Below are positions 38,227 through 41,781 of a stretch of 59,213 nt of DNA, piece by piece (positions within the stretch are counted from its first letter, which is position 1; the number at the start of each line of letters is the position of its first letter). The notes below the pieces were generated by a model. That model ran no database searches. It saw only the letters and a list, made by a program, of their open reading frames with translations, and was not told the DNA's origin. Source of the stretch: Singulisphaera sp. GP187 (lineage in GTDB: Bacteria > Planctomycetota > GCA-002687715); the NCBI GenBank assembly GCA_945907755.1, contig CAMDTN010000013.1:1-59213 (forward strand). Direction: 5' to 3'. Position numbers and translations under genes: made by a program.

Positions 38227-39987
38227 CTACTCCACTAGTGTCAGGGTGATGCGGCGCAGGTTCAGCACAGCGGTCTTCGGTTTCTCCACAATGCCGACCA
38301 CCACTTCATGGTCGCCAGCAGCCAGTTCGATAGTACCGATGACATCCGTGCGCCACTGCGACCAACTTCCGGTGCTCTCAGGCTTTGCCGTGAGCTTCGC
38401 TGCGCCCACTGCTACGCAGTATTCGCCGCCACCTTGCGCGGCATCCACCGCCAGTTCCACCGCGACGCTGTAACGCCCCGGCTTATCCACGCGCAGCGGC
38501 CAGCTCACGCTGTCTTTGGCATCGGTCCAGTAACCAATGTTGTCGTTGTTTTCCACGCGCAGCGTTGTGCCGTGCAAAATTGCTTCCGTTGCGGGCAGCG
38601 TGATGCTGCCATCCGCCGCCGCTGTGGCGCGCCACGCTTTCACGCTCACAGGCCCGATGCAATCCAACACCAGCACCGTTGCGATTTTGTCCGGGCACTC
38701 CTTCGGCACTGTCAAACGCAAGCCTTCGGCGCCCACCGCAATGCCCAGCGCTGTGCCCGCAACATGCAAGCGCGCCGATTGCGGTGTTGCCGTCAGCCGG
38801 GGCAATAACACCGTGCCGTCAGCGGGCCAGTCGAACACATGGATGTACAAGCGCGTGCCGTGCTCGGTGCTGCGTGCGGTGCAGCGCCCGAAGGGCAGCG
38901 GCTTCAAGAATGGACCGGCAATGGTGCCGTGGATGGAATCAGCGTTGCGCGCCATCCATGCGCCCATGGCTTGCAAGCGTTCGACACTTGCTGGCGGAAT
39001 CTCGCCCAGCGCTGTGGGCCCAACATTCAGCAGATAATTGCCGCCCTTGCTGGCACAGTCGATGAGGTTGCGCACTAGTACTTCGGCGCTTTTCCAAGCG
39101 TGGTCGTCGCTGCGCCAACCCCACGTGGTGTTCATGGTCATGCAAGACTCCCAGTCCACTCCGGGCAGCCCACCAGGTGGGATCTCTTGCTCGGGCGTGC
39201 CGAAGTCCCCTGCAAAACCAGCGCCTTTGTCCAGCCCCTGCATGTCGTTGCGCCCGCCGCCCACCCTGTTGTTGATGATGGTCTGCGGCGACAAGGTGCG
39301 ACAGAAGTTGTACAAGTCCCAGCCGCGTTCACGGTTCCACGACTGCTCCCACTCGCCGTCGAACCACAGCATGTCAATGCTGCCGTAATTCGTGAGCAGT
39401 TCTTTCAACTGCGCTTTCAAGAACACGACGAAGCGGTCGAAGTCGGCGTCGGCAGCAGGGCGCTTGTCCACACTGCGGCGCGGCAAGTAGTCCGGGTGAT
39501 GCCAATCGAGGATCGAGTGATACCAACCGATGCGCAAGCCTTCGGCACGGCACGCGGCGGCCACTTCCTTCATGATGTCGGTGCGATTCGGCGCGCTGCC
39601 AACATCCCAATCAGAAACTGCTGAATCAAACAGCGCGAAGCCATCGTGGTGCTTCGTGGTGATCACCACATATTTCATGCCTGCGGCCTTGGCCAGCTTC
39701 GCCCAAGCCTTCGCGTCAAAGCGCTCGGGGTTCCACTGCGCCTTCAGCGGTTCGTAGTCCGCAGGGGTGATGCCTGCGTTGCGCATGATCCACTCACCGG
39801 TGCCACTAACAGGCTTGCCCTGCCACTGCCCAGCGGGAATGGCATACAAACCCCAGTGGATAAACATGCCGAAGCGTGCGTCGCGAAACCACGCCATGCG
39901 CTGGTTTTTCTCGGCGGCGGCGTCTTGCGCGGCAGCTTGCGCGACGAACGAAGTGAGCAGTAGAAACAAAGCGAGCGCAGTCTTCAT
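38227..39987 (-). CDS. Secreted alpha-L-fucosidase, GH29
   Basis: Removes terminal alpha-L-fucose from glycans. A signal peptide spans residues 1-20 (AQAAAQ). The GH29 barrel (about 30-370) has FGMFIHWGLYA, TKHHDGFALF, a GWYHSILDWHHPDY segment, and the nucleophile D210 in MLWFDGEWE. Also present is GNYLLNVGPTALGEIP. A C-terminal beta-sandwich, probably carbohydrate-binding, occupies residues 480-586. The start has GAGG upstream. It shares this neighbourhood with a sialate esterase and a GH2 enzyme, consistent with attack on fucose-rich polymers, such as algal or mucin-type glycans. It shares its strand with the HMA gene upstream, 61 bases away. Confidence 0.95.
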   Translation of the reverse strand: MKTALALFLLLTSFVAQAAAQDAAAEKNQRMAWFRDARFGMFIHWGLYAIPAGQWQGKPVSGTGEWIMRNAGITPADYEPLKAQWNPERFDAKAWAKLAKAAGMKYVVITTKHHDGFALFDSAVSDWDVGSAPNRTDIMKEVAAACRAEGLRIGWYHSILDWHHPDYLPRRSVDKRPAADADFDRFVVFLKAQLKELLTNYGSIDMLWFDGEWEQSWNRERGWDLYNFCRTLSPQTIINNRVGGGRNDMQGLDKGAGFAGDFGTPEQEIPPGGLPGVDWESCMTMNTTWGWRSDDHAWKSAEVLVRNLIDCASKGGNYLLNVGPTALGEIPPASVERLQAMGAWMARNADSIHGTIAGPFLKPLPFGRCTARSTEHGTRLYIHVFDWPADGTVLLPRLTATPQSARLHVAGTALGIAVGAEGLRLTVPKECPDKIATVLVLDCIGPVSVKAWRATAAADGSITLPATEAILHGTTLRVENNDNIGYWTDAKDSVSWPLRVDKPGRYSVAVELAVDAAQGGGEYCVAVGAAKLTAKPESTGSWSQWRTDVIGTIELAAGDHEVVVGIVEKPKTAVLNLRRITLTLVE

Positions 39988-40048: not shown

Positions 40049-40609
40049 CTAAGACTTCTTAGTGAACTTGGTGAGTTTGAAGTCCTTGTTGCCTTCGAGC
40101 AGCTTCTTGGCGCTCTCTTCGGTCAGGCCATCTGCGGCCTTGGTGAGCACCGTTACGAGGTGCGTGTCGCCATAGGGATGCGCGGCCACGACGCCATCAA
40201 CCTTGGTGAAGATCGCACGGATCTTCGCGCAGGTTTCGGCTCATCCAACGCCGTCGATTTCCAGTTCGAAGTTGCCCTTGGTCTTCGGCCGCTCCACGGA
40301 TGCATAACTGTCGATGCCCGGTTCCCATTGCAGCACTTTCAAAGCCTCGACGATGGCATCCTTGGTAGGGGCTTTGTCTTTCGCCTTGAATGTGACCGTG
40401 GCAGTGGAATCCACAACGAGATCAGCAACGCCGCTCAGTTTTGCCAAGGTCTCACGGACCTGATTGGCTTTGACTGCGGCTCCTCAGCCGCCGCCGTTGG
40501 TGTAAGTGAGCACCCACACCGTTTCCTTTTCCTCGGGAGTTTGCGCCGGCAGCGTCAACGCGCTGAACGCGAGCAGCAGCCCGAGGGCACTAATCACAGA
40601 AAGTTTCAT
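40049..40609 (-). CDS. Predicted double-selenocysteine two-domain heavy-metal-associated (HMA) protein
   Basis: The frame from ATG 40609 to TAG 40049 contains two TGA codons, at 40484-40486 and 40241-40243; read through, it gives 186 residues. A signal peptide covers about residues 1-23 (LTLPAQ). Two HMA-like domains follow. The first reads GGG-U42-GAAVKANQVRETLAKLSGV, the second GVG-U123-AETCAKIRAIF..VDGV. The TGA of domain 2 aligns exactly with the first Cys of the HMA CxxC motif; in domain 1 it is about two residues off. Each TGA is followed by a SECIS-like hairpin. Conceptual Sec decoding is an inference: no selA, selB, selC or selD is in the window. A ribosome site AAGAGG lies seven bases upstream. 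Sits divergent to a thioredoxin-like gene. Likely role: periplasmic metal or redox binding. Confidence 0.75.
40208..40236 (-). promoter_or_regulatory. SECIS-like hairpin after the second TGA
   Basis: Counting from the base after the TGA, GAAGATC (15-21) and GATCTTC (27-33) form a perfect 7-bp stem with loop CGTGC (22-26), at 40208-40226. An outer stem AACCT/AGGTT adds five pairs below an internal loop. Loop distance and a loop G-U fit bacterial SECIS elements. Confidence 0.6.
40443..40468 (-). promoter_or_regulatory. SECIS-like hairpin after the first TGA
   Basis: Counting from the base after the TGA, AGGTC (23-27) pairs with GACCT (33-37) around loop CGTGA (28-32), and GCCA (16-19) pairs with TGGC (38-41) below a three-base bulge. 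The loop begins with CGTG, as at the second TGA. The lower stem is weaker here. Confidence 0.55.
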
Positions 40610-40776
40610 GGTCGAACCTCTTGGCGAGATCATCGCACACCCGAGCAGGCGCAGGGACAAAAAAACAGCGAAGCCCCCCTTGTTACCTTGGCGCGCCCTA
40701 CAAACATGCGGGTTACTTGCGGCGCACACGGCGCTGCGGGCCCTGAGCGCCGTAGGTGCAACCCGAGGACTCAATC

Positions 40777-41781
40777 ATGCTGCGTTGGATAATGCTGTGC
40801 GCGTTGGCCCTGCCGTTAGTGGCTCAAGAACCTGCTGCCCCTGTGTGGGTCGGTGACTTCGACAAGGCCGTGGAAATGGCCAAGGCCGCCAAGAAGGATC
40901 TGCTGGTGGATTTCACTGGCTCCGATTGGTGTGGTTGGTGCGTGAAGCTGGAAAAGGAGGTGTTCTCGCACGAGGCCTTCCTGAAGGCGGCGCAGGCGAA
41001 ATACATCTTGGTGGCGCTGGACTTCCCCCAGGCCGAAGAGATCAAAGCCAAGGTGCCGAACCCAAAGCGCAACGAAGAGCTGCAGAAGAAGTACGAGGTC
41101 CGCGGCTTTCCCAGCATTTTGCTGATGGACGCGCAAGGCGATGTCTACGCGCAGACGGGCTATCAACCCGGTGGTCCCGAAGCCTATGTGAAGCATCTCG
41201 ATGAGATTTCCACCAAGGGCCGCGCCGCCATTACTGCGGTGGCCGCAGTGCTCGCCGAAGCCACGAAGGCAGAGCCCGGTCAGAAGGCCGCCGCGCTGTC
41301 CAAGGTCATCGACGCGCTGCTCGCATTGGATGCAGACTCTCCCGCCGCCGCGAAGCTCATCCCCGTTGTCAAAGAGGCACTCACAGTGGATGCCGACAAC
41401 AAGCGGGGCCTGAAGCTCAAGGCACTAAAGGCGCTGCTGAAGTTTGGCCAAAGCGATGCAGCGCTGTGCGCCGCTGCCAAGGAGCTCGACCCCAAGAATG
41501 AACACGGCTTGCTGGAGCAATGCGTGGTGGTGCAATCGAACCAAGTCGATTCTGAAGAAGCAGTGAAAGCAGCGTTCCAGGCCATCGAAGCGCTGGACGC
41601 GCTGGGCCCGGTGAAAGACAAGGAAGCCGCCTTGCAGCTCTACACCAACGCCGCCTTCTGGAACCAGCGTTTCTTGAAGGATGACGCCGCCGCGAAGAAG
41701 TTCGCAGCCAAAGCGCTGCCCTTCGCCAAAGACAATGAAGGCCTCAGCAAGGCCCTCCAAGAAATCATCGACGGCAAATAA
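40777..41781 (+). CDS. Secreted thioredoxin-fold protein with CGWC motif
   Basis: A 334-residue exported protein. After a signal peptide (about residues 1-17) a thioredoxin fold at 22-135 has CGWC at 52-55 and a cis-Pro loop in VRGFPSILLMD. Residues 150-334 are helical, Ala/Lys-rich and TPR-like, with repeated A-L-x-x-x-E/K segments (SKVIDALLALDADSPAAA). The start at 40777 has GAGG upstream. It could be a disulfide reductase or reductant for other exported proteins. It diverges from the double-TGA HMA gene (167 bases between), which suggests shared regulation or a redox link, but this is unproven. Confidence 0.85.
   Translation: MLRWIMLCALALPLVAQEPAAPVWVGDFDKAVEMAKAAKKDLLVDFTGSDWCGWCVKLEKEVFSHEAFLKAAQAKYILVALDFPQAEEIKAKVPNPKRNEELQKKYEVRGFPSILLMDAQGDVYAQTGYQPGGPEAYVKHLDEISTKGRAAITAVAAVLAEATKAEPGQKAAALSKVIDALLALDADSPAAAKLIPVVKEALTVDADNKRGLKLKALKALLKFGQSDAALCAAAKELDPKNEHGLLEQCVVVQSNQVDSEEAVKAAFQAIEALDALGPVKDKEAALQLYTNAAFWNQRFLKDDAAAKKFAAKALPFAKDNEGLSKALQEIIDGK

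Follow-up and report, generated by a model that had tools for sequence, protein, structure and literature searches.

Our analyses indicate that a short planctomycete gene very likely encodes a protein with selenocysteine (Sec) at two in-frame TGA codons, one in each of two tandem HMA-type domains. The gene lies within a 59,213-nt stretch of DNA from Singulisphaera sp. GP187 (contig CAMDTN010000013.1, analyzed over its whole length and called the window here). Insertion of Sec at both sites is inferred from sequence evolution and from the Sec machinery of the genome, as there are no peptide or 75Se data. The overall explanation that we favor, by a narrow margin and with function untested, is that of an exported tandem-HMA protein whose two Sec residues bind a soft metal as a pair.

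A short gene with two in-frame TGA codons

The double-Sec tandem-HMA gene occupies positions 40049 to 40609 on the minus strand, with an ATG start at 40609 and a TAG stop that ends at 40049, and specifies 186 residues when TGA is read as Sec (MKLSVISALG...YTNGGGUGAAVKANQVRETL...EIDGVGUAETCAKIRAIF...TKFTKKS). This assignment rests on the frame and on orthologues that have both TGAs. TGA 1 is codon 42 (40484 to 40486, minus strand), read as Sec 1, and TGA 2 is codon 123 (40241 to 40243, minus strand), read as Sec 2. A first-pass annotation made from sequence alone had described these coordinates, a signal peptide, two domains and a TAG stop, all of which held; the strand had been left out. Its view that the frame stays open and coherent over both TGAs also held, with selection continuing downstream of both, as did its argument that a changed genetic code is unlikely given that other genes end in TGA: three neighboring genes in the window stop with TGA. 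Translation with the standard code splits the gene into fragments, and genes of this kind are therefore easily overlooked.

The predicted signal peptide, MKLSVISALGLLLAFSALTLPA (40544 to 40609, minus strand), was read from the sequence without a signal-peptide predictor and corresponds to a low-confidence N-terminus in the AlphaFold2 model. Export to the cell envelope is inferred from this signal peptide or, in relatives, from lipobox-like N-termini. Such N-termini were seen in the distant double-Sec relatives L051, L052 and L055 (LLGC, VASC and AAAC); these proteins could possibly be anchored lipoproteins as opposed to soluble exported proteins, an inference drawn from their sequences alone. 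Separately, the orthologue L023 (G009:C23) has ~100 extra N-terminal residues that look like a further HMA-like domain without Sec or metal-site Cys.

A thioredoxin-like protein with a CGWC motif is encoded divergently (40756 to 41781, plus strand). It is a neighbor only, retained in a same-genus genome and absent beside the gene in more distant relatives. The downstream neighbor, an alpha-L-fucosidase (38227 to 39987, minus strand), is probably unrelated. Comparison of gene neighborhoods for the double-Sec type revealed nothing conserved beyond close relatives, and no conserved mer, cop or ATPase neighbor was found among the relatives compared. A plasmid search for the double-Sec gene gave no match, and an Rfam scan of the window found no RNA family.

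The source genome encodes the Sec machinery

The source genome (2.68 Mb, 97% complete, 94 contigs) contains selA, selB, selC and selD, all four of the genes that the annotation had proposed looking for. The selA gene scored 498 bits, above the curated cut-off, and adjoins the tRNA-Sec gene, which scored 78 bits and was called by ARAGORN as tRNA-SeC with anticodon TCA. The selB match (325 bits) comprises 599 residues up to a contig end; the C-terminal piece matches a different contig, again at its end. selD is apparently split over two contigs and has one in-frame TGA within the motif GGGUASK; SelD (L019, G000:C26:33664-34227) is itself a candidate Sec protein. Within the order of the source organism, selA was present in 11 of 12 genomes. 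In the other class that we searched, selA is nearly universal (145 of 154 genomes), and association between the double-Sec gene and selA is therefore uninformative there.

Both TGA codons are conserved in a planctomycete family

All seven members from the same order, including that of the window, have both TGAs at the same columns, and the six others share 34-77% identity with the window protein. The nearest relative, at 76-77% identity and with both TGAs, is from a same-genus planctomycete assembled from Lake Baikal (SIAO01000010); a single-sequence scan of all genomes recovered this relative only. Profile searches of 392 genomes across the phylum and of 154 genomes of another class together yielded ~60 further relatives, and nearly all full-length matches carried two TGAs. 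Specifically, both TGAs are kept in ten more relatives across the phylum and in ~50 genomes of the other class. TGA is present at both columns in 55 of 55 distinct full-length proteins of the double-Sec type from Planctomycetota, even though pairwise identity among them has a median of 26% and a minimum of 15%. The only residues invariant in 100% of these proteins are the two Sec and Arg131. Sec 1 and Sec 2 always co-occur in full-length members, and 15 of the 55 proteins contain no Cys. The fetched loci that lack the double-Sec pattern encode other kinds of protein: L117, without a TGA, has a GMSC loop that looks ordinary; in L118, a single UxA domain precedes a degenerate one; L119 is a tandem with ordinary CxxC motifs; and L121 is of the GMTUxxxC type.

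No full-length Cys version of the double-Sec type was found in the Planctomycetota genomes searched by profile. These genomes were taken one per species, many were fragmented or incomplete, and the profile search was limited to Planctomycetota; thus, the absence of Cys forms holds only for the Planctomycetota searched. Because no full-length Cys homologue was available, the Cys/Sec pairing test was replaced here by strict TGA conservation and covarying SECIS hairpins. Of the outcomes that the first-pass annotation had foreseen for homologues, Cys or Sec at the TGA columns, Sec was found at both columns and a Cys form was not. Its proposal of a double selenoprotein is strongly supported by the Sec machinery and the homologues, with peptide evidence lacking. 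Its description of the protein as unusual needs adjusting, since the gene does not stand alone and belongs to a large family in planctomycetes.

Comparison with the same-genus orthologue gave dN/dS values of ~0.14 before, 0.18 between and 0.26 after the TGAs, showing that purifying selection extends beyond both. These data bear on the possibility that the gene is a pseudogene, or that an assembly error produced two false stops. The fragmentation of the assembly speaks for such an explanation. However, both TGAs recur in the same-genus orthologue, which is 76-77% identical, and in another 53 distinct relatives, and purifying selection persists 3′ of both TGAs, all but excluding this explanation.

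Covarying hairpins follow both TGA codons

Hairpins were folded from the 57 nt starting at each TGA, with CGTG[AC] as the typical loop. Hairpin 1, which is SECIS-like in the bacterial manner, lies at 40445 to 40463 (minus strand; positions 24-42 from the first base of TGA 1) and has the loop CGTGA. Hairpin 2, a putative bacterial SECIS with a 7-bp stem and the loop CGTGC, lies at 40208 to 40226 (minus strand; positions 18-36 from the first base of TGA 2). In 15 diverse sequences, taken at this constant distance from TGA 2, 105 of 105 cells of hairpin 2 were paired, with compensatory change at six of seven pairs; its covariation score was reached by 0 of 500 shuffles, and sliding the partner cut pairing to 31-44%. 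Across 55 sequences, 97.7% of its cells were paired and 53 had the loop CGTG[AC]. Hairpin 1 is weaker, with 83.8% of cells paired and compensatory change at five of seven pairs, and its covariation score was likewise reached by 0 of 500 shuffles; it sits nine nt nearer TGA 1 in the more distant group. When single sequences were compared with synonymous shuffles, significance was modest, both with respect to stem length and at UGA 1, so the support for SECIS elements comes from covariation across sequences.

Of the 55 genes, 54 encode Arg131 with CGT, which makes up 17% of the other Arg codons in these genes; the bias is explained by the position of the Arg131 codon in the loop of hairpin 2. 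The corresponding loop codon in domain 1 is CGT in some relatives and AGT in others, which changes Arg to Ser and retains the GT of the loop. The CGT bias and the retention of GT despite the change of residue argue that the constraint is at least partly on the RNA. Thus, the hairpins downstream of both TGAs are very likely bacterial SECIS elements, as judged from fold and covariation, with weaker support at UGA 1. A scan of the window for TGA followed by such a hairpin in open frames returned TGA 2 of the gene plus two other frames; the latter overlap other genes out of frame and were judged to be chance.

An alternative to Sec insertion is that TGA encodes another amino acid, such as Trp, or is read through by near-cognate suppression, and the presence of two in-frame TGAs in a single gene could be taken to favor it. 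Against this stand the TGA stops of the three neighboring genes, the presence of selABCD and tRNA-Sec, and the gene of the relatives, which has two internal TGAs and a TGA stop; in several relatives, TGA would be used twice as Sec and once as the terminal stop within one gene. Moreover, the TGAs are confined to metal-ligand columns and each precedes a covarying hairpin, and the covariation already contradicts this alternative, which we consider all but excluded.

The predicted fold places each Sec in a metal-site loop

The AlphaFold2 model, generated with a 17-sequence alignment (pLDDT 89.9, pTM 0.80), contains two beta-alpha-beta-beta-alpha-beta units. HMA-like domain 1 (residues 28-108; 40286 to 40528, minus strand) has the loop GGGUGAA and is assigned from this fold and from a Foldseek match to tandem HMA domains. 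HMA domain 2 (residues 112-185; 40055 to 40276, minus strand) has the loop GVGUAETC and is assigned from the model and from Pfam PF00403, which scored 30.5 bits against a cut-off of 24.8 over its best stretch, residues 116-172, with Sec read as Cys. In more distant relatives PF00403 falls below the cut-off (17.1 bits for L046, no match for L051). The best PDB matches found by Foldseek were the tandem HMA domains of CopA and ATP7B, and profile matches also included CopZ, MerP and mercuric reductase; viral fold matches gave nothing useful.

In the model, Sec42 and Sec123 each directly precede the first helix of their own unit, in the beta1-alpha1 metal-site loop, which is ~two residues longer in domain 1. 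In the CopA alignment, GMTCxxC has its first Cys in the Sec 2 column and its second in a column with conserved Thr. The annotation had placed TGA 2 at the first Cys of an HMA CxxC motif: the column held in alignments, where TGA 2 falls on the first Cys of GMxCxxC in CopA and ATP7B, whereas the likeness to CxxC failed. TGA 1, described there as close to the first-Cys position, occupies the matching beta1-alpha1 loop in domain 1. At the second ligand position, domain 1 has Ala (UxAA) and domain 2 has Thr (UxxT); neither motif is a CxxC in which Sec merely replaces the first Cys. The HMA criterion of a two-ligand CxxC metal site is thus not met.

Proposed role of the Sec pair

In the mechanism that we propose, the UGA codons 42 and 123 would each be decoded as Sec by SelB and tRNA-Sec, with the covarying hairpin shortly downstream of each UGA directing insertion. 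At the start of helix 1 in each domain, Sec would stand in for the first of the two metal-ligand Cys residues, the second Cys of CxxC being absent, and the protein would be exported to the cell envelope, probably to the periplasm. There, the paired selenols may form a bis-selenolate with a soft metal ion, for example, Cu(I), Ag(I), Hg(II) or an organomercurial, either within one molecule or with a partner. We infer a pair because neither Sec is missing from any full-length member and because 15 members have no Cys; in those 15 proteins, any intramolecular partner of one Sec must be the other. As the second ligand is lost in each domain, a classic two-thiolate site cannot form within one domain, and metal binding would therefore depend on pairing across domains or molecules, although the Sec-Sec distance is unmeasured. 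That the two selenols bind a soft metal as a pair is an inference without metal-binding data, and we see it as equally likely to be right or wrong. The lack of a conserved mer, cop or ATPase neighbor counts against the metal reading, and a redox role is not excluded.

Such a role is the main rival explanation: the protein would be a double selenoprotein, but its Sec residues would form a reversible diselenide or react with periplasmic peroxides or thiols. In its favor, most known selenoproteins are considered redox proteins and the GPX-like and OsmC-like selenoproteins also include UxxT motifs (PMC13188914), the two Sec are invariably together, and a thioredoxin-like protein is the divergent neighbor in the source genus. 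However, the predicted fold is HMA and not thioredoxin, some relatives lack any Cys and hence a resolving thiol within the protein, and the thioredoxin neighbor is lost in more distant genomes. On balance, we lean against the redox explanation. A further possibility is that, like selenoprotein P, the protein mainly stores or carries selenium and that its two Sec have nothing to do with metals. The inferred export and the related HMA proteins in the phylum with apparently four Sec are compatible with storage. However, the protein has only two Sec, both tied to the metal-site loops of a fold that binds metals, and a storage protein would not need such strict conservation of position; this possibility is very unlikely.

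Cys versions exist for many selenoprotein families, and it is common to regard Sec as a better Cys. The family described here is widespread and has two Sec as its sole conserved chalcogens, paired in a metal-binding fold that is inferred to be exported. The conserved Sec pair suggests a task that is perhaps specific to selenium, for example, mercury or copper capture. A bolder form is that of an obligate-selenium metal-handling family in which one Sec per HMA domain contributes to a bis-selenolate clamp or a reversible diselenide. We offer this only tentatively, as the evidence falls somewhat short of favoring it; if true, the chemistry would need selenium itself rather than merely be helped by it, and there would be no Cys-based counterpart in the lineage. 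The gene also provides a clean system with two putative SECIS elements in one short mRNA.

Other candidate HMA selenoproteins in planctomycetes

Our searches also brought up HMA proteins of other types. The source genome encodes a second HMA selenoprotein candidate (L039, G000:C6:31677-31991). This exported protein consists of one domain with the motif GMTUGGSC (UxxxC), and its TGA is followed by a strong GGTCCGTGCGACC hairpin; its relatives L038 and L041 are in two same-genus genomes. Apparent UxxU or UxxxU HMA proteins occur in L061 (G110), L138 (G264), L146 (G076) and L062 (G225). The two UxxxU domains of L061 would give four Sec in one protein, and L062 scored 34.2 against the NCBIfam UxxU cut-off of 95, below the threshold. 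Tandem or neighboring HMA proteins with GMTUxxC or GMTUxxxC, in which Sec is accompanied by a retained second ligand Cys, were seen at L028, L029, L043, L121 and L144. Genes that look from their sequences alone like xylulokinase or xylose isomerase-like genes lie near GMTUxxxC genes in several genomes (L067 3113-5772, L083 and L086; L080 7992-9452), and the double-Sec sub-group L053, L054 and L056 is likewise near such genes.

Comparison with known Sec-containing and tandem HMA systems

A 2026 review recognizes 119 prokaryotic selenoprotein families or subfamilies (PMC13188914), among them a UxxU protein with two Sec listed as a metal-binding protein or putative mercuric reductase. The corresponding NCBIfam family, NF041115 (UxxU metal-binding (seleno)protein), shares with the window protein an HMA-type domain, two Sec and presumed heavy-metal binding. 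However, both of its Sec lie in one UxxU of a short domain (a 74-position model), whereas the window protein has one Sec in each of two domains, lacks UxxU and scored 18.7 bits against the cut-off of 95, which is not met. NF045683 (MerT/CopZ fusion-like heavy metal transport selenoprotein) likewise combines Sec with a CopZ-like part but has a membrane MerT part that is missing from the window protein, which scored 17.8 bits, short of the cut-off of 375.

The annotation had noted that Sec-bearing HMA proteins have been suggested in metagenomic selenoproteomes, and this held: the GOS survey reported two sequences of a Sec-containing mercuric transport protein MerP, in a table without the motif (PMC2398784). 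The likeness is that of an HMA-type, mercury-related protein with Sec. MerP is usually a single Cys-based domain, and the window protein did not meet the MerP model TIGR02052 (16 bits against a cut-off of 92.55).

CopA (2rml/1p6t) and ATP7B likewise contain a tandem pair of HMA folds, and Sec 2 aligns with the first Cys of their GMTCxxC motif. In contrast to these, the window protein is free-standing and, by inference, exported, has Sec in place of Cys and has lost the second ligand; the whole-length TM-score of ~0.3 indicates that the mutual arrangement of the domains differs. A tandem HMA protein with one Sec per domain is not among the 119 families tabulated in the review. Thus, as judged from that table, NCBIfam and full-text literature searches, selenium-containing HMA proteins were known before (UxxU, MerT/CopZ-Se and the GOS MerP), and what is new is the double-Sec tandem-HMA family.
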